Part shown: in pieces, positions 1 to 26,676 of the stretch
How positions within the stretch are numbered: position 1 is the first letter of the stretch
Layout: each line of letters opens with the position of its first letter
DNA from: Nitrososphaerota archaeon
GTDB taxonomy: Archaea; Thermoproteota; Nitrososphaeria; Nitrososphaerales; Gagatemarchaeaceae
Assembly (NCBI GenBank): GCA_027887005.1
Contig: JAPCJI010000012.1
Coordinates: 1-33,660 of the forward strand
DNA length: 33,660 nt
Direction: 5' to 3'
Notes under the pieces: generated by a model
What the model was told of the DNA's origin: nothing
Database searches by the model: none
Seen by the model: only the letters and a program-made list of their open reading frames with translations
Position numbers and translations under genes: made by a program

Positions 1-1073
1 AGCTTGGCATCCTTCCTGTTGGAGGCGAGAAAGGCTTCGACGTCCTTCCCCCTGTCCACGGTCGGACCCACTCGTTGTTCTAGTTCGGGGAGGACGAAGA
101 ACTCCGGTATGAGCAGGATTGCGCTGGACCTCGCATTGTCGGAGGCGGCCATCGACCTGGCGATTCGGAAGCCGCTGACTTCCAGATGCCTTACGATGTG
201 GCGCGTCGTCTTCCTTAGCTCTCCCCAGAGTGTGTCCTCGCTCAGCTCCTGGTGGGAGAAGGGGAGGGCAACCACTTCCTTGCGCATCGACGGATGGTCT
301 TTTCCTTGCATCTGGCGGAAGAAGGCCGTGGAGGGCCGACTTAGAAACTCTCTGGCCGCCAGGACCATCCTCCCCAGCTTCTCCGGCGAGATCGCTATTG
401 CCAGGTCCCTCCGCTCGTCCACCGGGTCAGGGAGGGTGAACAGCCGCTCCTTGCCGCTCGGCTTGAAGTTCGCGAAGAAGCTCAGCACTCCCTCCAGGTC
501 CTCATGTTTCAAGACCAGGACTTCGGCGACGTAGCCGCTGAAACCCTGGACCTGAATCTCTGCGCCGTAGACCCCAATCGCCTTCATGAACCTCTTGAGC
601 AGTCTGATCTGCGTCTTCTTATCCTGGGACAGGCCCTTTACCAATTGCACGTGGTAGGGTGACCTGTCCGCAGCGCTCTTCCACTCTCCCCTGTTCACAG
701 CGTAACAGGGAACGATGTTGACTCTGACGCTGTCGATGGTCGCCTCGGTGTACGGGTGCTGGGCGTACTTCTTCCCGCGGGGGAAACCCCTGGTCGCGAT
801 TGAGCCGACCGCGAGCCCCACTTCTTCGAAGCGCGACTCCGGCGTGGAGGGGTCGACCTTGACGAAGATGTCGAGGTCTACGTACTTCGGAAGCCAGGTC
901 CCCTTCGCGAAGGACCCCCCCAGGACCACTCCTCGAGTTTCAGAGTACCTTGCCGCCGCCTTCCTCGTCTTCCGCAGGAGTGAATCGGCCAGAGAGGTGA
1001 TCCTCCTTTGGACTGCTGGGGAAGGGTTGACCCCTGAGGCTGCGCCTTCGAGCACGCTGTGGAGGTCGGTCAA
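1..1073 (-). CDS. cca: Archaeal CCA-adding tRNA nucleotidyltransferase, 3' end cut by window edge
   Basis: Class I CCA-adding enzyme, which builds or repairs the CCA terminus of tRNA from CTP and ATP. The minus strand reads openly from a TTG at 1073-1071 to the left edge (about 357 codons; the family is usually 430-460, so the C-terminus is missing). About 50 residues in is GSFAKGTWLPKYVDLDIFV, the class I nucleotidyltransferase signature (GS, then DxD metal-binding aspartates). Further on, the stretch around VNIVPCYAVNRGEW is the usual archaeal palm/neck region. The TTG overlaps the thpR stop codon (TTGA), which suggests translational coupling; a GTG at 1055 is the alternative start. thpR-cca adjacency is common in archaea and fits a tRNA-processing operon. 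The only tRNA here whose 3' end is well defined (tRNA-Asp) encodes no CCA, so the enzyme is needed. Family assignment is firm; the start is less so. Confidence 0.9.
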   Translation of the reverse strand, partial: MTDLHSVLEGAASGVNPSPAVQRRITSLADSLLRKTRKAAARYSETRGVVLGGSFAKGTWLPKYVDLDIFVKVDPSTPESRFEEVGLAVGSIATRGFPRGKKYAQHPYTEATIDSVRVNIVPCYAVNRGEWKSAADRSPYHVQLVKGLSQDKKTQIRLLKRFMKAIGVYGAEIQVQGFSGYVAEVLVLKHEDLEGVLSFFANFKPSGKERLFTLPDPVDERRDLAIAISPEKLGRMVLAAREFLSRPSTAFFRQMQGKDHPSMRKEVVALPFSHQELSEDTLWGELRKTTRHIVRHLEVSGFRIARSMAASDNARSSAILLIPEFFVLPELEQRVGPTVDRGKDVEAFLASNRKDAK

Positions 1074-1627
1074 GTCAGTGGATACACCCCGACATCCGAG
1101 TAGGTCGGTCCCTGCGACGAGAGGACGCTCGACTTGAGCTTCAATTGCTTCAAAGCTAGAGATCCGAAGGAGCGGTCGGAGTTCGCGCTTAGGAGGGCCG
1201 ACAATTCCTTCGATTCGTTCCTTGACCTGAGCCGCGCGAGGGTCGCGTGAGCCCTGAATGGCCTCCCGTCGGTCTCGCCGATGGCTTCGAGGGCCGCGAT
1301 GGCCGATTGAGCGATTTGAACCACAAGGCCTTCCTGCGACCCGAGGACTCCGACCCAGACGACGTTGGGACGTTCGATGCTCGGGAACGCGCCGACCCCC
1401 CTGACCTCGACCCGGGCCGAGCTCAGGCGAAGGCCCTTGAGCCGGGCGTCTGCCTCCCTGGCTTGGCTCTCGGATATTTCGCCCAGGAACTTCACTGTGA
1501 AGTGCAGGTTCTCTCTTTCCACGAGCTTCAGGTCAGCCCCGGCCCGGGAAAGTTCCGCCTGGAAAGCGACGAGGGCGTCGAGGACCCTCGGCTCTTCGAT
1601 CTCGAGTGCTACGAAGGCTCGCAACAA
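1070..1627 (-). CDS. thpR: RNA 2',3'-cyclic phosphodiesterase / 2'-5' RNA ligase family (ThpR/LigT)
   Basis: 185-residue member of the 2H phosphoesterase superfamily, cytoplasmic, acting on 2',3'-cyclic phosphate RNA ends. The two catalytic HxTx motifs are visible: HFTV near residue 42 and HATL near residue 126. The N-terminus (LRAFVALEIEE) is the standard ThpR opening. The first codon is TTG at 1627, followed directly by another TTG at 1624 that would give the common RAFVA start, so the true start is one of these two. The gene overlaps the downstream cca start by four bases and diverges from the UPF0200 kinase; about 60 bases separate the divergent starts and must hold both promoters. Length matches the family (180-190). 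Confidence 0.92.
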   Translation of the reverse strand: MLRAFVALEIEEPRVLDALVAFQAELSRAGADLKLVERENLHFTVKFLGEISESQAREADARLKGLRLSSARVEVRGVGAFPSIERPNVVWVGVLGSQEGLVVQIAQSAIAALEAIGETDGRPFRAHATLARLRSRNESKELSALLSANSDRSFGSLALKQLKLKSSVLSSQGPTYSDVGVYPLT

Positions 1628-1688
1628 GTTTCAGCCGTCGGAACTTGATTTAAATCCACTCTCAGCCGGGCAGTCTACGAAGTCTATC

Positions 1689-2243
1689 TTGTACATCGTT
1701 CTCATCACTGGCATGCCCGGCGCAGGCAAGTCGACCGCCGCCCAGGCACTGGTGGCGAAGGGATGGAAGCGCGTGGTCATGGGGGACGTCATCAGGGAGG
1801 AGACCAGGCGGAGAGGGCTTGCCCCCGACTCCAAGAATACAGGAGAGGTGATGAAGGAATTGAGGAAGGAGCGCGGTGAAACTGCCGTCGCAGAGCTCTG
1901 TCTGGAGGCCGTCAGGAAGATGAAGGCTGACAGGGTGGTCGTCGACGGCATAAGGTCCATGTCAGAGGTGGTGACCTTCAGGAAATCTGCTGATGCGATT
2001 CTCGTAGTAGTCCACGCTTCCCCTAGGCGCCGGTTCTCCCTTCTCAAAGAGAGGGGAAGGAGCGACGACCCGCTTACCCAAGAAATGTTCCAGACAAGGG
2101 ACCAGAGGGAGCTGGGAGTGGGGTTGGGGAATGCGATCGCCTCCGCCGATGAGATGGTCTCGAACGAGCGCAGCACGCCGGAGAGGCTCGCCGTTGAGAT
2201 CGTCGCAGTAGTCGACCGCTGGGTAACGGAAGTTGCAGCCTGA
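1689..2243 (+). CDS. UPF0200-family P-loop kinase (nucleotide/dephospho-CoA kinase-like)
   Basis: 184-residue archaeal P-loop NTPase of the UPF0200 family, related to adenylate and dephospho-CoA kinases. The Walker A GMPGAGKST lies at about residues 9-17, followed by VVMGDVIREE, the acceptor-binding stretch typical of the family, and RVVVDGIRS as the Walker B-like strand with a conserved GIR; the lid region is rich in arginine (RRRFSLLKERGRSDD). The true substrate is not established from sequence. The open frame continues upstream to 1365, but that part lies antisense to thpR and carries no family similarity, so I start at TTG 1689, which puts the P-loop at the normal distance from the N-terminus. 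The end overlaps the UPF0201 gene by 11 bases. Confidence 0.85.
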   Translation: MYIVLITGMPGAGKSTAAQALVAKGWKRVVMGDVIREETRRRGLAPDSKNTGEVMKELRKERGETAVAELCLEAVRKMKADRVVVDGIRSMSEVVTFRKSADAILVVVHASPRRRFSLLKERGRSDDPLTQEMFQTRDQRELGVGLGNAIASADEMVSNERSTPERLAVEIVAVVDRWVTEVAA

Positions 2244-2637
2244 CCCGAGGGCTCGGGTCAGGGTCGAAGCTACGGTCGCCCCATCGGAAGACCCGGACAA
2301 GCTGTTGAGCGCTGTGAAGAGCGTCGTAGGGGGTGACCTGCGCGAGGAGATCGGAAGGAACGGGGTGAAGGTCTTTTCGGCAGGGCCGGGTACACTGCTC
2401 CGGCTGCACGACCAGTTCCGAGACAGGCACGTCCGGGGAGCGGCGAGGAGGTTGCTTCTGGCGGGAGCCAAGGGGAATTCCACGACCGTGATGGTGAACA
2501 GGCAGGCTGCGACCGTGGGGGTCGTCGTGCTTTGCAGCGCACCCGAAGAGTCGCCTCTGGGCCCGATCTATGTCACGGTCGATTGCAGGGGAATCGAGGC
2601 TGTGATTGACTGGCTCACGGCCTATGAAGAAGGATAG
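2233..2637 (+). CDS. UPF0201-family protein
   Basis: 134-residue archaeal conserved protein, UPF0201 family, function unproven; it is often discussed as RNA-associated because of its neighbours. Family hallmarks are seen: an N-terminal strand VRVEATVAPSEDPDK, the GNSTTVMVNRQAA stretch and the C-terminal ESPLGPIYVTV. UPF0200 and UPF0201 genes are commonly adjacent or fused in archaea, which supports both calls. The start is a TTG at 2233 inside the upstream gene; no ATG or GTG lies closer to the conserved part. The 3' end overlaps the convergent RNase Z gene by 16 bases. Confidence 0.8.
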   Translation: MQPDPRARVRVEATVAPSEDPDKLLSAVKSVVGGDLREEIGRNGVKVFSAGPGTLLRLHDQFRDRHVRGAARRLLLAGAKGNSTTVMVNRQAATVGVVVLCSAPEESPLGPIYVTVDCRGIEAVIDWLTAYEEG

Positions 2638-3542
2638 TCAACCTCGACGCGCATGCCGTCGGCGGCCGCGAAGGTGTTCGGAAACACGCCCCGTGCCTCC
2701 TTCACGAGGCCGGCAACGTTGCGATAGCGGGCACTGAAATGGGTGAGTCCGAGTTTCCGCACCCGGGCAGACTTCGCAAGTTCGGCAGCCTCCAGGCAGG
2801 TGCTGTGCTTCCTCTCAACAGCCTTTTCCTTGTCCTTTCCCTGGAAGGTCGAGTCGAAGATCAGCAGGTCGCATCCGGAGAAGAAGCGGGCGAGGCGTGC
2901 CGAGGGCCGCGTGTCCCCTGAGTAGCCAACCTTCCTTCCAGGGCGTGGAAGCCCGGTCACTTCTGAAGGGTCCACGATTTTCCCGCCGACCTTGACACTC
3001 CTCCCCCTCTGGAGCCTCGACCAAAGCTTTCCCTCGGGTATGCCAAGCTCCTTCGCTTTCTCCGGATAGAAGATGCCGGGCCTGCTCAGCTCTTCTACGA
3101 CGTAGGAGTAGGCCTCAATCGAATGGGTTGCTTTGGTGGCCTTCACCCTGAATTCCTTGGTTCGCAGCACCACCCCCTTCTTCGTGGGTATGAAATTGAT
3201 GGGGAAGGTGAGGCCGATATGAAGGAGCTCGCTGGTCACCTTGAGCCATCTGAGCAGGGGAGGGGGGCCGACTATTGTGAGCGGCTTGGTCCGCTGGGCC
3301 AGACCCATGGTCTGAAGTAGGCCCAGGAGGCCTGTGACGTGGTCGCCGTGGAGGTGCGTGATCAGGATGGTGGTCTGCTTGTTGAGCCCGATTCCCCGGC
3401 TTAGGACCTGGCGTTGCACGCCTTCTCCGCAGTCCATCAGTATAACGTCTCCTTCGCGCTGTATTGCGATGGCCGGGAGGCCTCTTCCCTTCGTAGGGGC
3501 TGCCGAGCTCGTGCCGAGAAAGGTGACGGTGAGCTTCGCCAA
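2622..3542 (-). CDS. rnz: Ribonuclease Z (tRNA 3' endonuclease)
   Basis: 306-residue metallo-beta-lactamase nuclease that cleaves tRNA precursors after the discriminator base. The zinc motif THLHGDH is at residues 62-68 (His63, His65, Asp67, His68). Later ligands follow: THSIEAY near residue 140, GYSGDTRPS near residue 210 (bridging Asp) and LTHFSARY near residue 271, the last being the HxxxRY-like motif specific to RNase Z. The length fits the short (homodimeric) ZS form. It lies 2 bases downstream of the Trm-G10 gene in the same direction and after prs, so the three minus-strand genes 5381-2622 probably form one operon. It supplies the substrate end for the CCA-adding enzyme encoded nearby. 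Confidence 0.95.
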   Translation of the reverse strand: MAKLTVTFLGTSSAAPTKGRGLPAIAIQREGDVILMDCGEGVQRQVLSRGIGLNKQTTILITHLHGDHVTGLLGLLQTMGLAQRTKPLTIVGPPPLLRWLKVTSELLHIGLTFPINFIPTKKGVVLRTKEFRVKATKATHSIEAYSYVVEELSRPGIFYPEKAKELGIPEGKLWSRLQRGRSVKVGGKIVDPSEVTGLPRPGRKVGYSGDTRPSARLARFFSGCDLLIFDSTFQGKDKEKAVERKHSTCLEAAELAKSARVRKLGLTHFSARYRNVAGLVKEARGVFPNTFAAADGMRVEVDYPSS

Positions 3543-3544
3543 GT

Positions 3545-4501
3545 CTAGGTCCTCCTCATGATGGTGATTGTCCTAGTCAAGAGCCTGTGGACATAAAGTT
3601 GCAGCTCCTCTTCGACTTCCATCTCAGCGGTCCCTTCTACGGCGACGCGGCTGGAGTGCATGAGGACCATCCTGGAGCCTCCCCGCAGCATCGGCGCGAC
3701 CGACCTCAGGGTCCTGTCGACTATCTCGCGGGGGCCCGAACCCCTGGTGCTGGAGGCCCTGCCATAGGGAACGTCGGTGGCGACTGCGTCTGCCCTGAGC
3801 AGAGGATGCTGGTAGGCGTCCGCCCGAAGGACCCCCATCCATCGCTGGCCGAAGTGCTTCATGTTGGCAAGGGAACCTGCGACCATGCGTGCGACCTGGT
3901 CTGATGCGACCACCCGGGCGCCGATCTCTGCCGCCTCGATGGGGATGCTCCCCGTCCCCGTGAACGGGTCGAGAAAGACTTGGCCTTCCCTGCATCGGCT
4001 CAGGTTTACGAGGGCCCGTGAGAGCTTTGGGAATATCGCGGAAGGGTGGAAGTATGCTCGCTTCCGGGGCCTTCGATGGGACCAAGTCTGGCGCATGGAG
4101 GCCGGCGCCGTGAGCACGAGGTAGTTCTTCCTCCCCCTCACCAGTGTGATTTCGTAGTCGGGGTTCTTCAGGTCAACCTTGACCTCTAACCTGCCCATTG
4201 ACGATTCGGGGTCTGGAGGGCTCAGCCCGGGGCTCAGATCGAAGTTCCTGAACCTCACCCGTTTCCCCCTGACGACCTCGGTGGCGTCGAACGGGTCGTC
4301 CAGCAGCACCCCGACTCGGCGGGAGAAGGCCACCCGTGATGAAACCCGGAAAGGGTCTGCCTCGGTCTCCACAAGGACGATGCGCTTCTCCGGGGTTTCG
4401 AACCTCGAACCCGGGTCGTAGGCAAGGAAGAGCGCCTTCGCTTCGGCTTCAGGGATGGAGGTCGTCTCCCCCGATAGGAGTGCCAGAGCCCTACTCTTCA
4501 A
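3545..4501 (-). CDS. tRNA (guanine10-N2)-methyltransferase, Trm-G10/Trm11 type
   Basis: About 318 residues: an N-terminal THUMP-like part (LALLSGETTSIPEAEAKAL), then a Rossmann methyltransferase. SAM motif I is FLDPFTGTGSIPIEAA at about residue 180 and motif IV is TDVPYG at about residue 250. Family members methylate N2 of G10 in tRNA. The motif IV core is DVPY rather than the usual DPPY/NPPY; Val here is unusual but the flanks (TD...GR) match archaeal Trm-G10. The frame opens at ATG 4537, 47 bases inside prs, but homology begins at TTG 4501, which overlaps the prs stop by 11 bases, so I prefer TTG. It sits in an operon between prs and rnz. Confidence 0.85.
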   Translation of the reverse strand: MKSRALALLSGETTSIPEAEAKALFLAYDPGSRFETPEKRIVLVETEADPFRVSSRVAFSRRVGVLLDDPFDATEVVRGKRVRFRNFDLSPGLSPPDPESSMGRLEVKVDLKNPDYEITLVRGRKNYLVLTAPASMRQTWSHRRPRKRAYFHPSAIFPKLSRALVNLSRCREGQVFLDPFTGTGSIPIEAAEIGARVVASDQVARMVAGSLANMKHFGQRWMGVLRADAYQHPLLRADAVATDVPYGRASSTRGSGPREIVDRTLRSVAPMLRGGSRMVLMHSSRVAVEGTAEMEVEEELQLYVHRLLTRTITIMRRT

Positions 4502-5381
4502 GGGTCTTGAGGTGGGAGGAGATGGCGTCGGAGACATCGACCGCGCTGAACATTCCAGGAACGGTGTTCGTCCCGACTATGGTCTTCACCCCGGCCTTCT
4601 CGAGCTTCTGGATGGCGTCTCCCACGAAGAGCCCGTGGGTGCAAACGGCTGCCACCTTCTTCGCACCTTGTTTGAGAACGGTTTCAGCTGCCGCGCAGAC
4701 GGTCCCACCGGTGCTGATGATGTCGTCGACGATTATCACCTCCTTCCCCTTCACTTCGAGCTTCGCGTCTTTCACTGTGACTTCTCCGCTGACCCTGTCC
4801 CGGGTCTTGGAAAGCTGGATGAACTTGGCACCGTAGAGCTGGGCGAAGGCCTCGGTTCTCTTGGACCCGCCGAAGTCCGGCGAGATCACGACAGGGTCGC
4901 GGTAGTCCAAATGGTCCCTCGCGTACCCGACGAGGCTGGGGACCGCAGACACGCTGTAGGTCGGAAACGAGAACAGGGAGAGGCCTTCAGCAGAATGCAT
5001 GTCGACGGTCACAAGCCTTCGAACCCCAGCCGCCCGCATCAGGTGGGCGACGACCCCGAGGGTAACGCCTTCGCCGGGAAGGAACTCCTTGTCCTGTCTT
5101 GCGTAGGCGAGGTAGGGGACCACGGCCGTCACCTTTGCCCCGTCCTGACTGAGCTGGTGCGCGGCGAGGAGAAGCTGGAAAAGATGCTGGTCCACGGGTG
5201 GGTAGGTCGACTGCACGAGGACCACGCTCTTTCCGGAGACCTTCTCATCCACTGTGAACTTCGATTCGCCGTCAGGGAAGACCTTGAACTGCGCGTTAAG
5301 CAGGCCGACCCCGAGCTTGTTGGCCACGGCTATCCCGAGGTCGACTGAAGCGGGCCCTGCGACTACGAATTTCTCGACCAA
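4491..5381 (-). CDS. prs: Ribose-phosphate pyrophosphokinase (PRPP synthetase)
   Basis: 296-residue enzyme that makes PRPP from ribose 5-phosphate and ATP, feeding purine, pyrimidine, histidine and NAD synthesis. Seen: the ribose-phosphate stretch FPDGESKFTV near residue 36, VVPYLAYARQDKEF (the flexible-loop lysine/arginine region) near residue 88, TVDMHSAEG near residue 125, SPDFGGSKR near residue 167 and the PRPP-binding VIIVDDIISTGGT near residue 216. Length is typical of archaeal PRPP synthetases (280-295). The start is TTG 5381. A TATA-like element 31-38 bases upstream (5412-5419) suggests a short or no leader. Downstream it overlaps the Trm-G10 start. Confidence 0.95.
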   Translation of the reverse strand: MVEKFVVAGPASVDLGIAVANKLGVGLLNAQFKVFPDGESKFTVDEKVSGKSVVLVQSTYPPVDQHLFQLLLAAHQLSQDGAKVTAVVPYLAYARQDKEFLPGEGVTLGVVAHLMRAAGVRRLVTVDMHSAEGLSLFSFPTYSVSAVPSLVGYARDHLDYRDPVVISPDFGGSKRTEAFAQLYGAKFIQLSKTRDRVSGEVTVKDAKLEVKGKEVIIVDDIISTGGTVCAAAETVLKQGAKKVAAVCTHGLFVGDAIQKLEKAGVKTIVGTNTVPGMFSAVDVSDAISSHLKTLEE

Positions 5382-8608: not shown

Positions 8609-8691
8609 GATGGCGCGCAGTCCTCGGAACACCTACGGGAACAGAGATAAAGCCTGGAGTCGGCAAGAGCACTTGACAGCGGTTGAGCAAC

Positions 8692-9573
8692 ATGGCTGCG
8701 AGTCTGAGGAAGTCTCTCTCCGGAAAGCAAGTTGTCGTCGCCCCAGGCGTCTTCGCCCCCGCGGTTGCGAAACTGGCTGAAAGGATGGGTTTCAAAGCAC
8801 TTTATTTCTCTGGGGCAGGATTCTCCAATCTGCTCGCGCTCCCCGACCTCGGCATCACCACTCTCTCCGAAGTGACGGACGCGGCCCATAAGATAGCGTC
8901 CCAGGTCAGGGTCCCCCTCATCGTGGACGCTGATACTGGATTCGGGGAAGCGCTCAACGTTGCAAGGACGGTCAGGGAAATGGAGGCGGCCGGTGTGGCG
9001 GCAATTCACATCGAGGACCAGGTGCTGCCGAAGAGGTGCGGGCATCTCGACGGAAAGGAATTGGTGGACCCGGACGAGATGGCCAAGAAGGTACTGTCGG
9101 CGAAGGAGGCAGCGAGGGCCGGGTTGGTCATTGTTGCGAGGACCGATGCAAGGACGGCGGAGGGCCTCGACGCTGCGATTGAACGAGCCAGGTATTATGC
9201 GAAGGCCGGAGCGGACATGATTTTCCCCGAGGCTCTAGAGGGAAGGGACGAGTTCGCCGAATTCAGGAGGAAGGTCTCGCTCCCCCTCATGGCAAACATG
9301 ACGGAGTTTGGGAAGACCCCCTATATGAAGGTCGCAGACTTCGAGGAGCTGGGGTATAGCCTGGTCATTTTCCCAGTCACTGCCTTCCGGGCGATGATGA
9401 AGGCGGTCCGGGAAACCTTCCGAGAGCTGAAGTCGAAGGGGACGCAGAAGGGGATTCTCGGTTCGCTCATGACTCGCGCGGAGTTCTACGACCTGATTGA
9501 CTACTACGAGTATGAGACTGCGGACAAGAAGGCCAGCGACGCGGCAAGGCGCCTGAGGAAGGCGCGAAGTTAA
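8692..9573 (+). CDS. prpB: Methylisocitrate lyase (isocitrate lyase/PEP mutase superfamily)
   Basis: 293-residue TIM-barrel enzyme expected to split 2-methylisocitrate into pyruvate and succinate in the methylcitrate cycle. Seen: FSGAGFSN, the metal-site motif VDADTGFG near residue 80, IHIEDQ near residue 106 and the lyase signature PKRCGH with catalytic Cys at residue 116. Length matches PrpB (290-300) rather than isocitrate lyase (over 400). Related members cleave dimethylmalate or oxaloacetate, so substrate is inferred from the adjacent (methyl)citrate synthase 27 bases downstream. ATG 8692 is preferred; TTG 8683 is three codons upstream. A TATA-like AGATAAAG about 40 bases before the start is plausible. 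Confidence 0.85.
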   Translation: MAASLRKSLSGKQVVVAPGVFAPAVAKLAERMGFKALYFSGAGFSNLLALPDLGITTLSEVTDAAHKIASQVRVPLIVDADTGFGEALNVARTVREMEAAGVAAIHIEDQVLPKRCGHLDGKELVDPDEMAKKVLSAKEAARAGLVIVARTDARTAEGLDAAIERARYYAKAGADMIFPEALEGRDEFAEFRRKVSLPLMANMTEFGKTPYMKVADFEELGYSLVIFPVTAFRAMMKAVRETFRELKSKGTQKGILGSLMTRAEFYDLIDYYEYETADKKASDAARRLRKARS

Positions 9574-9600
9574 AGCATCCTGGGGAGCCTGGACGAATCC

Positions 9601-10716
9601 ATGTCCTCAGGGATGAAGGTTCCGAAGGGGCTCGCGGGCGTCTCAGTGACAGAAACTAGCATTTCCAAGAGCGATGCAGACGGGTCGCTGGTCTATCGCG
9701 GGTACCCCATCAGCGAAATAACGGCGAACGCAAGGTACGAAGAGACGGCCTACCTGATTCTGAACGGGTCGCTACCGACCAGGAGCCAGCTTGAGGCTTT
9801 CTCATCCGACCTCGCAGAGAAGATGCAGGTGGACGGGAGGGTCTTCGGGATAATGAGGGATCTCGGCAAGGGTGCCCTCCCCATCGACGCGCTGCGGACG
9901 GCAACGTCTGCGCTGGGGAGCCTTGACGACCAGCGCAGCATCGGGGGACAGCAGGCTTCGATCGAGGCGAAGATGGCTGTGCTGGCAGCGAACTGCCACC
10001 GGGTCCCAAACGGTGAGAGGCTAGTAGAACCGAAGAAAGGCCTGGACTTCGCCTCCAATCTGCTTCAGATGCTGACGACCAAGGAGGCTTCCGAGTACGA
10101 AAGGTGGGCCTTCGAGAGGGTGCTGATGCTCTACATGGAGCACGACCTGAACGCGTCGTCTTTCACTGTCAGAGTGGTTGCATCGACCCTGGCAGACCCC
10201 TACGCTGCGGCCTCGGCGGGCCTGGCTGCCCTCAAAGGACCACTCCACGGAGGTGCGAACGAGGTGGCGATGCAGATGCTCCTCGATGTCGGGGAGCCGG
10301 AAAAGGCGGCCAAGTACGTGGACAGGTCGTTGAAGGAGGGGAAGAAGGTGATCGGCTTCGGTCACAGAGTGTACAAGAAGTTTGACCCGAGGGCGGTGCT
10401 CTGCAAGGAGTACCTGCGCGAAATCCTCAAGCGGCGAGGAGGGGACGACAAGCTCTTCCGGGTCGCAGATTCCCTGGAGAAGGAGATCTGGGAGCGAAAG
10501 GGGATTCCCCCAAACCTCGATTATTATGCCGCACCGATATTCTACCTTCTGGGGATCGAGATCCCCCTGTACACGCCGATCTTCGCGGCGAGCAGGGTCT
10601 TCGGCTGGATGGCCCACTACAACGAGCAGATGGCTGAGAACAAGTTGATCAGGCCGGACGCGACCTACGTCGGGCCAGACGACCTGAAGTATGTCCCGCT
10701 GGACGAGCGGAGCTAG
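9601..10716 (+). CDS. prpC: 2-methylcitrate synthase / citrate synthase
   Basis: 371-residue short (type I, archaeal/Bacillus-like) citrate synthase family enzyme condensing an acyl-CoA with oxaloacetate. Seen: opening KGLAGVSVTETSIS and YRGYPI, catalytic His in GPLHGGANE near residue 218, second His in GFGHRVYKKFDPRA near residue 258 and catalytic Asp in NLDYYAAP near residue 310. Whether it prefers propionyl-CoA or acetyl-CoA cannot be read reliably; position directly behind prpB favours 2-methylcitrate synthase. No prpD or AcnD-type dehydratase is in the window. The 3' end overlaps the convergent MeaB-type gene by 4 bases. Confidence 0.87.
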   Translation: MSSGMKVPKGLAGVSVTETSISKSDADGSLVYRGYPISEITANARYEETAYLILNGSLPTRSQLEAFSSDLAEKMQVDGRVFGIMRDLGKGALPIDALRTATSALGSLDDQRSIGGQQASIEAKMAVLAANCHRVPNGERLVEPKKGLDFASNLLQMLTTKEASEYERWAFERVLMLYMEHDLNASSFTVRVVASTLADPYAAASAGLAALKGPLHGGANEVAMQMLLDVGEPEKAAKYVDRSLKEGKKVIGFGHRVYKKFDPRAVLCKEYLREILKRRGGDDKLFRVADSLEKEIWERKGIPPNLDYYAAPIFYLLGIEIPLYTPIFAASRVFGWMAHYNEQMAENKLIRPDATYVGPDDLKYVPLDERS

Positions 10717-11624
10717 CCGCCGATCCGGGCAGCGGCCTGGTCCACGGTAAACTTGCCTGCTAGGACCTCACGAGCGAGCTTCTCGACCGTGGCGTTGGGG
10801 ATGCGCCCGAGCCGCTCCATGGCGTTCCCCCTCGCAGTTTCGATTATCATGCTCCTGAGGCTTCGAAGCCTCAGCTCCGGGTCCCCCTGGACGAACTTGG
10901 ACCGGATCGACTCGACTGCCGTGTCGAGCCTATCGAGGCCGTCCCCGGTCAGGGCCGAGACCTTGACGACGGCGGGCGAGCGTGATTTCAACCCCCTGAC
11001 AAGCCCGAGGAGGCTGACCACCATCAGGTCAGCGCCCTCGAGGTCAGATTTGTTCACGACGTAGACGTCCCCTACTTCCATCAGCCCCGCCTTTGATACC
11101 TGGACGTCGTCGCCCAGTCCGGGCATGAGCACTACGAGGACCGCGTGGGAAACCCCGACCACGTCGATGTCTGCCTGGCCGATGCCCACTGTCTCGAGAA
11201 GGATCACATCGAACCCCGCCGCATCCATCAACTGGATCGCCTGGGACGCCGCGCGAGAAAGTCCCCCGGACCAGCCGCGAGACGCCATGCTCCTGATGAA
11301 GACCGCCTCATCGTCAGAGTGGGAGACCATCCTGACCCTGTCGCCCAGCAGGGCGCCCCCGGTTATGGGGCTCGTCGGGTCCACAGCGATGACTCCGACT
11401 TTGAGGCCTTTGCCCCGATAGGTACCGATGAGTCTGTCTACGAGGCTGCTCTTCCCTGTCCCTGGCGGACCGGTTATTCCGAGGACGAAGGCCCTCCCCG
11501 GAGTCTCTAGCTCCGAGAGGAGTCTCGCTGCATCCTTCCGATCATTCTCTACGATGGTTATTCCCTTGGAGAGCGCCAGCCTGTTCCCCCTCTTGACCTG
11601 CTTCGCGAGCTTCGAGAGTTCCAA
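10713..11624 (-). CDS. meaB: MeaB/ArgK-type GTPase, B12-mutase chaperone
   Basis: 303-residue SIMIBI-class G protein that in known systems loads and protects adenosylcobalamin-dependent acyl-CoA mutases. Seen: an N-terminal helical cap, P-loop GPPGTGKS at residues 52-59, AVDPTSPITGGALLGDR (switch I-like, with the family Asp and Arg), RSMASRGWSGGL, LLETVGIGQADID (G3) and VVNKSDLEGAD (G4). Length is close to family (about 310-330). The start is TTG 11624. It is divergent from the mutase large-subunit gene with a shared intergenic region, so coexpression is plausible, and its 3' end overlaps prpC tail to tail. Confidence 0.93.
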   Translation of the reverse strand: MELSKLAKQVKRGNRLALSKGITIVENDRKDAARLLSELETPGRAFVLGITGPPGTGKSSLVDRLIGTYRGKGLKVGVIAVDPTSPITGGALLGDRVRMVSHSDDEAVFIRSMASRGWSGGLSRAASQAIQLMDAAGFDVILLETVGIGQADIDVVGVSHAVLVVLMPGLGDDVQVSKAGLMEVGDVYVVNKSDLEGADLMVVSLLGLVRGLKSRSPAVVKVSALTGDGLDRLDTAVESIRSKFVQGDPELRLRSLRSMIIETARGNAMERLGRIPNATVEKLAREVLAGKFTVDQAAARIGG

Positions 11625-11654
11625 CTGTGCTTCATCGAGCCGTCGGTGTAGCCA

Positions 11655-11661
11655 TTTTTAT
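11655..11661 (+). promoter_or_regulatory. Candidate TATA element for the mutase gene
   Basis: TTTTTAT lies in the divergent meaB/mutase gap; a second TATA-like TTTATCTT follows at 11678-11685. With the second, transcription would start near 11705 and leave a leader of about 55 bases before GTG 11762. Confidence 0.35.
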
Positions 11662-11761
11662 CGGTTCGAAGGCATCGTTTATCTTGGAGCGCGTCGGGCC
11701 AAGGCCAACCTTGCTCGGGAGCGAGAAGGAAGCATACTGGCGGAAGAAGTCGAAATCAGTT

Positions 11762-13468
11762 GTGGAACGCAGGGCTAGGGCTGGTCCTCTCTACGACAAG
11801 AAGGCGGTGGACAGCGTCAAGAAGGGAGTCAGGCAGTGGCAGGAGAGGGTTTTCGACGAATGGGTGAAGGAACATCCGGAATCGAAGGCGGATTTCCAGA
11901 CTGCCTCCGGAATCCCGCTGAAGCCCGTATACACACCGGTTGATGTGGCCGACGTCGACTACGCCGACGTGGGGTTCGCCGGGGTCTTTCCGTACCTGAG
12001 AGGAGTCTACCCGAGCATGTACCGCGGGAGGCTGTGGACCATGAGGATGTTCTCGGGGTTCGGGACGCCAGAGGACACAAACAAGAGGCTCAAGCTGCTG
12101 CTTGAACATGGCGAGACTGGGCTCAGCATTGCGTTCGACATGCCGACCCTGTACGGGTTCGATTGCGACCACGTCCGGGCCCACGGGGAGGTCGGGAGGT
12201 GCGGCGTCAACGTGTCCTCCCTGAAGGACATGGAGGTGATATTCGGCGGGATCCCGTTGGACAGGGTCAGCACTTCGATGACGATCAACGCCCCCGCCAC
12301 GGTTCTGACATGCATGTACGCCGGGGTCGCGATGAAGCAGGGGGTGCCTCTTGAGAAGTTGCGGGGGACCGTCCAGGCGGACATGCTCAAGGAGTACATC
12401 GCCCAGAAGGAGTGGGTCTACCCTCCGGAGGCGCACCTCAGGCTGGTCAGAGACCTGATGGTCTTCTGCACCAAGAAGATGCCCCTCTGGAACTACATCA
12501 GCATAAGCGGCTACCACATACGGGAGGCGGGGTCGAGCGCAGTCCAGGAGCTTGCGTTCACGCTGGCGGACGGGTTCGGCTACGTGGAGCTCGGCATTGA
12601 AGCAGGGCTCAAAGTCGAACAGTTCGCTCCGAGGCTCAGCTTCTTCTTCAATTCAACCATGGACTTCTTCGAGGAGATCGCGAAGTTCAGGGCCGCGAGG
12701 AGGATATGGGCCACAGTCCTGAAAGAGAAGTATGGAGTCAGGGACAAGAGAAGCCTGCTGATGAGGTTCCACACGCAGACGTCTGGGGCCTCACTTACGT
12801 GGGAACAACCGCTGAACAACATAATCAGGACCACGATAGAAGCACTGGCCGGTGTTTTGGGAGGGACCCAGTCGCTTCACACCAACTCCTACGACGAGGC
12901 CTGGGCGCTTCCGACTGAGAAGGCGGTGGAGGTCGCCCTCAGGACGCAGCAGGTGATCGCGGAAGAGACCGGTGTCCCGAGCGTGATCGACCCTCTGGGA
13001 GGGTCCTACTATGTCGAGTGGCTCACGGAGCAGATGGAGGAGGAGGCGTACAAGTACTTCGACAGGATCGAATCTGCAGGAGGCCTGCTCAAGGCCATCA
13101 AGTCTGGGTACCTTCAGCGGGAGATTGCGGAGAACTCCTACAGGCTCTCGAGGAGGGTGGAGGAGGGGAAGGACAACGTCGTGGGGGTCAACAAGTACGC
13201 GGTCGAGGAGAAGAAGCCCATCGACACGCTCAAGATCGACTTCGAGGCCCAGAGGAGCCAGGTGAACAGGCTCAACAGAGTGAAGAGGGAGAGGGACTTG
13301 GATAAGGTGAAGGCGGCGCTCGCGAAAATCGAGAGGGCGTTTGAAAACGAGGATACAAACTCGATCGAGCCCATGCTGAAGGCCGTGAACGAGTACGCCA
13401 CCCTCGGGGAGATAGTGGACGTGGGGAGGAAGGCCTTCGGGACCTGGCGCGAACCTATGATACTCTAG
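11762..13468 (+). CDS. Adenosylcobalamin-dependent acyl-CoA mutase, large subunit (isobutyryl-CoA-mutase-like residues)
   Basis: 568-residue catalytic (TIM-barrel) subunit of a two-subunit B12 mutase, the layout of archaeal methylmalonyl-CoA mutase and of bacterial isobutyryl-CoA mutase. Family landmarks: TASGIPLKPVYTP, RGVYPSMYRGRLWTMR, SISGYHIREAG, FRAARRIWA, RFHTQTSG and GGTQSLHTNSYDEA. The two substrate-determining positions are Phe97 (codon 12050) where methylmalonyl-CoA mutases have Tyr (RQYAGF), and Gln215 (codon 12404, in KEYIAQKEW) where they have the carboxylate-binding Arg. Phe/Gln is the isobutyryl-CoA mutase pair. The frame is open from 11627; TTG 11684 is possible, but GTG 11762 matches family length. 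The small subunit follows 46 bases after. Family firm; substrate inferred. Confidence 0.9.
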   Translation: MERRARAGPLYDKKAVDSVKKGVRQWQERVFDEWVKEHPESKADFQTASGIPLKPVYTPVDVADVDYADVGFAGVFPYLRGVYPSMYRGRLWTMRMFSGFGTPEDTNKRLKLLLEHGETGLSIAFDMPTLYGFDCDHVRAHGEVGRCGVNVSSLKDMEVIFGGIPLDRVSTSMTINAPATVLTCMYAGVAMKQGVPLEKLRGTVQADMLKEYIAQKEWVYPPEAHLRLVRDLMVFCTKKMPLWNYISISGYHIREAGSSAVQELAFTLADGFGYVELGIEAGLKVEQFAPRLSFFFNSTMDFFEEIAKFRAARRIWATVLKEKYGVRDKRSLLMRFHTQTSGASLTWEQPLNNIIRTTIEALAGVLGGTQSLHTNSYDEAWALPTEKAVEVALRTQQVIAEETGVPSVIDPLGGSYYVEWLTEQMEEEAYKYFDRIESAGGLLKAIKSGYLQREIAENSYRLSRRVEEGKDNVVGVNKYAVEEKKPIDTLKIDFEAQRSQVNRLNRVKRERDLDKVKAALAKIERAFENEDTNSIEPMLKAVNEYATLGEIVDVGRKAFGTWREPMIL

Positions 13469-13514
13469 GCTCCAGCAAAGGTTTTCAAACCAGAGGAAAT
13501 CCGCGGCCTCAGGG

Positions 13515-13946
13515 ATGGCCAAGAAACTCGTTTCTTCTCAGCGAAAGATCAGGATCCTGGTCGCAAAGCCGGGCCTTGACGGACATGACAGAGGCGTCCT
13601 CGTCTTGGCCAGGGCGTTCAGAGATGCGGGAATGGAGGTGATTTACAGCGGTCTTCTTCCGACCCCGGAGCAGGTGGCGCAGATGGCCGTCGACGAGGAC
13701 GTAGACGCCGTGGCCCTGTCTCTGTTGAACGGAGCTCACATGACAGCCTTCCCCAAGGTCAAGAAGATCCTCGAAAAGAAGGGAGGCAAGGACATCATCG
13801 TAATGGGGGGCGGAATAATACCCGAAGAGGACAAGGCAAAGCTCCTCAAGCTCGGGATCACGGGGTTATTCGGCCCTGGGAGTTCCCTCGAGGAGATTGT
13901 GCAACACGTAAGAGGTAGAGTTCAGAAGGAGCGCTGGAGGGTTTAG
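13515..13946 (+). CDS. B12-binding small subunit of acyl-CoA mutase
   Basis: 143-residue cobalamin-binding domain protein. The base-off B12 motif DGHDRG places the cobalt-ligating His at residue 24; the downstream SLLNGAH and VMGGGIIP segments complete the DxHxxG...SxL...GG signature. The opening KIRILVAKPGLDGHDRG is typical of mutase small subunits and C-terminal domains. It lies between the large subunit and an acyl-CoA dehydrogenase on the same strand (46-base and 4-base gaps), so these three are probably co-transcribed. It works as a heterodimer with the large subunit, bringing the cofactor over the barrel. Confidence 0.94.
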   Translation: MAKKLVSSQRKIRILVAKPGLDGHDRGVLVLARAFRDAGMEVIYSGLLPTPEQVAQMAVDEDVDAVALSLLNGAHMTAFPKVKKILEKKGGKDIIVMGGGIIPEEDKAKLLKLGITGLFGPGSSLEEIVQHVRGRVQKERWRV

Positions 13947-26458: not shown

Positions 26459-26548
26459 TTTGGGTTGCGGCCATCTTTAAGCCTGTTTTTGTGGAAATCA
26501 CGACGCTCGGCAAGGAGCCTTGGTCATGGAGAGGCGCCCTGGCCGGGA

Positions 26549-26563
26549 GTTTCGTCAATAGAT
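26549..26563 (-). other. tRNA-Asp intron 2 (T-loop, position 59/60)
   Basis: 15 bases inside the T-loop. The central helix is TTCG/CGAA, 3-base bulges are AAA and ACT, and the short inner hairpin is TC/GA around TATT. Cutting after the second base of each bulge restores the canonical loop TTCGAAT. Confidence 0.88.
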
Positions 26564-26584
26564 TTCGAACCCGGGTCGCCGCCG

Positions 26585-26604
26585 CTCTGCCTGGCGTTTG
26601 CCGT
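26585..26604 (-). other. tRNA-Asp intron 1 (position 37/38)
   Basis: 20 bases. The central helix pairs anticodon-loop CTGT with intron GCAG; bulges CAA and AGC are cut after their second base, leaving loop CTGTCAC. The inner helix closes with GGC/GCC around an AAAC loop. Confidence 0.85.
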
Positions 26605-26665
26605 TGACAGGGCAGCATACTGACCTCTATACTACCAGGGCGTCGGTGCACCCCGCTTCTCCTCA

Positions 26666-26676
26666 GTTATTTAATC
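26666..26676 (-). promoter_or_regulatory. TATA box of tRNA-Asp
   Basis: Minus-strand GATTAAATAAC, 25-35 bases upstream of the first tRNA base. Confidence 0.55.

Follow-up and report, generated by a model that had tools for sequence, protein, structure and literature searches.

A two-intron tRNA-Asp(GUC) gene with a 15-nt T-loop intron in an uncultured Nitrososphaerota archaeon

Introns of archaeal tRNA genes range from 11 to 129 nt with a median of 15 nt (PMC3218864), and position 59/60 is among their known insertion sites (PMC4090602). Multi-intron tRNA genes, with up to three introns per gene, have been described in Thermoproteales and in Nitrososphaerota/Thaumarchaeota (PMC4090602, PMC8450103, PMC3218864), and the gene described here shares with them a strict bulge-helix-bulge (BHB) motif at each boundary, the combination of a 37/38 intron with one at a non-canonical site, and an alpha/beta splicing endonuclease (EndA). 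For Thaumarchaeota, 107 non-canonical introns have been reported, along with a BHB model for this clade in tRNAscan-SE 2.0 (PMC8450103), and so has an alpha2beta2 EndA (PMC4090602). In Aeropyrum and Thermosphaera, tRNA-Asp(GUC) is likewise disrupted and processed at a BHB, but there it is split into separate transcripts (PMC3218864), whereas our gene is contiguous. Compared with the known multi-intron genes, nothing essential is different; new are the species, the precise sequences of the introns and the occurrence of a 59/60 intron in tRNA-Asp throughout the family. Intron-bearing tRNA genes of this kind are usual in these archaea and were already known.

The window, which is the whole 33,660-nt stretch of DNA analyzed, comes from a metagenome-assembled draft genome (MAG) of an uncultured Nitrososphaerota archaeon (1.6 Mb, 96% complete, 26 contigs). 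Its minus strand from 26641 to 26535 carries a 107-nt tRNA-Asp(GUC) gene made of three exons and two introns, with the CCA end not encoded. Exon 1 (26605..26641, 37 nt, tRNA positions 1-37) is followed by intron 1 (26585..26604, 20 nt, ACGGCAAACGCCAGGCAGAG) at the usual site, 37/38; exon 2 (26564..26584, 21 nt, tRNA positions 38-59) is followed by intron 2 (26549..26563, 15 nt, ATCTATTGACGAAAC) at position 59/60 in the T-loop; and exon 3 (26535..26548, 14 nt, tRNA positions 60-73) ends with the discriminator base G73. A TATA-box-like element, ATTAAATA, lies on the same strand at 26668..26675, at -34 to -27 relative to the tRNA 5’ end, and an AT-rich TATA-like element is found at a similar distance upstream of tRNA-Asp in relatives. 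Joining the exons (37+21+14) yields 72 nt with the anticodon loop CTGTCAC and the T-loop TTCGAAT, and ARAGORN called tRNA-Asp(gtc) once both introns were removed in silico. The earlier note had proposed just such a gene, with two introns, one of 15 bases in the T-loop, and a canonical 72-base tRNA after excision, and its reading proved exact to the base. Split or permuted organization was ruled out, the exons being contiguous and in order. A group I or other self-splicing intron was also ruled out by the intron lengths of 15 and 20 nt, compared to a catalytic core of at least 100 nt, and the Rfam scan of the window gave no match.

Each intron lies within a strict BHB, in which a 4-bp helix separates the two 3-nt bulges of the exon-intron junctions. 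The motif of intron 1 consists of an outer helix CTGCC/GGCGG (the anticodon stem), a central helix CTGT/GCAG and bulges CA^A and AG^C, and its inner helix contains one mismatch or bulge in the window. That of intron 2 consists of an outer helix CCGGG/CCCGG (the T-stem), a central helix TTCG/CGAA, bulges AA^A and AC^T, and an inner helix TC/GA capped by a TATT loop. When each of the four junctions is cut after the second base of its bulge, the canonical 72-nt tRNA remains. Both motifs were present in the folded precursor (z = -4.0, with 0/200 shuffles as stable), in agreement with the textbook BHBs that had been proposed for the two interruptions. When the 15 nt of intron 2 were shuffled, the 4-bp central and 2-bp inner helices returned in 0.09% of cases, and when intron 1 was shuffled, its four central pairs returned in 5.6%; a chance origin of the motifs was excluded because they are conserved across relatives.

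The unspliced gene escapes simple scans, as the earlier note had anticipated. ARAGORN found no tRNA in the window and none in the unspliced gene, and Rfam RF00005 matched the raw gene with wrong boundaries and a score of 17.2 bits, short of its 29-bit cut-off. Model R1 matched the gene at full length with 92.7 bits, the gene itself being among the sequences from which R1 was built. A current tRNAscan-SE 2.0 scan in archaeal mode should find the gene, because that program has a BHB model specific for Thaumarchaeota. The locus is thus a clean comparative case of an essential tRNA gene that is intact though invisible to simple scans, and it cautions that tRNA counts from scans of this sort are too low in Nitrososphaerota.

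We searched the genome for the processing enzymes. An EndA alpha gene (L083) aligns to the Aeropyrum pernix EndA (3p1z) with an E-value of 3e-41 and has the Y/H/K catalytic triad; it also has a loop lysine at the aligned position of A. pernix K44, a residue of the crenarchaea-specific loop whose role has been described (PMC6379350). An EndA beta gene (L084:1234-1782) aligns best with the Methanocaldococcus jannaschii EndA and has proline in place of the catalytic histidine. Alignments to 3p1z/3ajv and 1a79 point, at the sequence level, to an (alpha-beta)2-type EndA with the crenarchaea-specific loop, so that the search for a heteromeric endonuclease suggested by the earlier note was successful. 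RtcB is encoded by a single gene (E-value 1e-169). The note had also argued that two-intron genes imply an endonuclease able to cut non-canonical sites; the genome does encode an enzyme of the relaxed-specificity type, but the two introns, with strict BHBs and non-canonical in position only, do not by themselves require one.

We propose that the gene is a working tRNA-Asp(GUC) gene, probably the sole copy, from which both introns are spliced by EndA and RtcB, and we assign this reading a probability of about 0.96. That the gene is real and functional is almost certain, and splicing of both introns is very likely. The 107-nt precursor, plus its ends, would be transcribed with each intron inside a strict hBHBh’ motif, in which the T-stem or the anticodon stem would stack on an exon-intron helix of 4 bp with a 3-nt bulge at either end. 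The (alpha-beta)2 EndA would then cut after the second nucleotide of each bulge to release the introns, and RtcB would join the exon ends to give the 72-nt tRNA. Because the TTCG of the T-loop is paired within the BHB of intron 2, this intron would have to leave before the T-loop and elbow form, and so ahead of T-loop modification and probably of end-trimming. We infer this order of steps from tRNA biology, and transcription, cleavage and ligation are inferred as well.

The earlier note had called for a search for another, intron-free tRNA-Asp gene. BLAST with the spliced tRNA, model R1 and a pattern for the 5’ half all found none in the host genome; what these searches returned were tRNA-Glu, tRNA-Gln and similar genes. 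Among these the closest, on contig C8 (30710-30821, minus strand), is a tRNA-Glu(UUC) with a D-arm insertion of about 40 nt that is probably a D-loop intron, and it too falls below the Rfam cut-off. A complete single-contig relative (G019) has one tRNA-Asp that we could see, with both introns present. The gene at 26535-26641 is therefore probably the sole tRNA-Asp(GUC) gene of the genome, with the qualification that a second one could sit in the missing part of this 96%-complete draft. Two relatives (G039 and G040) gave two tRNA-Asp matches each, from duplication or mixed bins, and both copies read in G040 have both introns.

Matches were recovered in 29 of the 46 genomes of the family. We parsed 41 loci, with 25 distinct full tRNA-Asp genes, all of which (25/25) have the 59/60 intron, with lengths of 15-34 nt, while 21 have the 37/38 intron. 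Four genes (L044, L074, L076 and L080) lack the 37/38 intron and have a longer D-arm that resembles a D-loop intron, and two more (L071 and L079) have apparently three introns, in the D-arm, at 37/38 and at 59/60; the D-arm insertions in these six genes are apparent introns. The named records with the neighboring DHDPS-family gene are mostly Nitrososphaerota (Thaumarchaeota) MAGs, and in eleven of those loci the complete pre-tRNA is present, with 85-93% identity. Nine family genomes that were searched again, including three drafts of the same genus that are 90-97% complete, yielded no tRNA-Asp, and assembly gaps are the likely cause. For four drafts without a detected tRNA-Asp (G016, G030, G041 and G001; 90-97% complete), the cause may be an assembly gap or a more broken gene. 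The 5’ half of tRNA-Asp was not found in G016, G030, G041 or G044. A split tRNA-Asp in the same-genus drafts that lack the gene was considered and rejected: no tRNA surrounds the exact 15-nt matches to the 3’ end in G016 and G044 (L213 and L210), which resemble chance hits within coding sequence, and a match resembling the 3’ end in G017 (L190) has no T-arm upstream.

Across the 15 distinct genes of the genus, the mean pairwise difference was 1.4% in the exons, 32% in intron 1 and 22% in intron 2. The intron pairing was nevertheless retained, with 97.4% of cells paired and five pairs changed on both sides, compared to 0/500 shuffles. Compensatory changes occurred in the inner helix of intron 1, and a UA to CG change occurred in that of intron 2 (L068); the T-loop central helix and three of the four pairs of the anticodon central helix never varied and are uninformative on covariation.

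These comparisons bear on three other explanations of the locus. If the copy were a tRNA relic or decayed pseudogene carrying two small insertions, with tRNA-Asp supplied by another gene, this would account for the failure of ARAGORN and Rfam to recognize the unspliced gene. The near-invariance of the exons within the genus, the retained promoter-like element and the lack of any other tRNA-Asp detected in the host genome or in the closed relative G019 all argue against decay, making this explanation very improbable. It is slightly less probable again that only the 37/38 segment is an intron and that the 15-nt segment remains in the mature molecule and enlarges its T-loop. The T-stem could still pair at the base of such a loop, and TTCG/CGAA would lengthen it, but the segment varies in sequence and length among relatives while the BHB geometry is kept, and its excision yields the universal TTCGAAT loop. 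Moreover, a 22-nt T-loop would break the T-loop/D-loop elbow.

The draft, metagenomic nature of the host genome raises the further suggestion that the insertions are artefacts of assembly or sequencing. Both introns recur, diverged in sequence, in independent genomes and named records, and we give this suggestion practically no weight. We retain the reading of a functional gene with two spliced introns.

No full tRNA-Asp gene found in the family lacks the 59/60 intron, while the 37/38 intron has been lost in some and additional D-arm insertions, apparently introns, occur in others, and for this reason we considered that the 59/60 intron might be kept for a purpose. The 3’ half of the gene is a common attB site, and the intron could shield this half from integrases or serve as a checkpoint that places splicing ahead of T-loop modification and end-trimming; we consider such a purpose unlikely. 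In Caldiarchaeum, tRNA introns have been suggested to act protectively at integration sites (PMC3293823). The family orthologues with one, two or apparently three introns form a natural series for the study of intron gain and loss, and are also suited to asking why the 59/60 intron persists.

We extended the comparison to the order by searching 250 genomes and reading 40 stretches. Families f3, f4, f12 and f17, together with some members of f8 and f14, have 59/60 introns in tRNA-Asp; those members of f2, f6, f7, f13, f15 and f16 that were sampled have none. The large sister family f10, probably Nitrosopumilaceae, carries introns at 59/60 in tRNA-Glu(UUC), 14-19 nt long. These genes are like the window gene in intron position and layout (TTCAAA-ATCAATCGATGAAAA-TCCCGG in L117) and similar in intron size, but they belong to another isotype, and those read have no 37/38 intron. 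Outside the order, tRNA-Asp genes of f22 and f32 have a 59/60 intron and some also a 37/38 intron; three of them (L156, L160 and L158) match the window gene in isotype and in both intron positions, but their intron sequences differ from it and are too short to settle descent. The earlier view that T-loop introns are mainly confined to a few Thermoproteota lineages was too narrow given this distribution. Its placing of 15-20 bases near the lower size limit also did not hold against the published range and median, and a tRNA-Ser(UGA) gene of the host genome (C7:3331-3425, minus strand) has a 37/38 intron of 12 nt, shorter than the T-loop intron. In one member of f11 (L122 in G055), the T-arm insertion of tRNA-Asp is near 52/53 instead of 59/60.

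Elsewhere in the window, genes at 1070-4537 encode LigT/2’-5’ RNA ligase-like, metallo-beta-lactamase (RNase Z-like) and UPF0020 methyltransferase proteins, for which a role in RNA processing is possible. A cluster at 8683-13946 encodes PEP mutase/isocitrate lyase-family, citrate synthase-family, MeaB, methylmalonyl-CoA mutase and B12-binding proteins, suggesting propionate metabolism.
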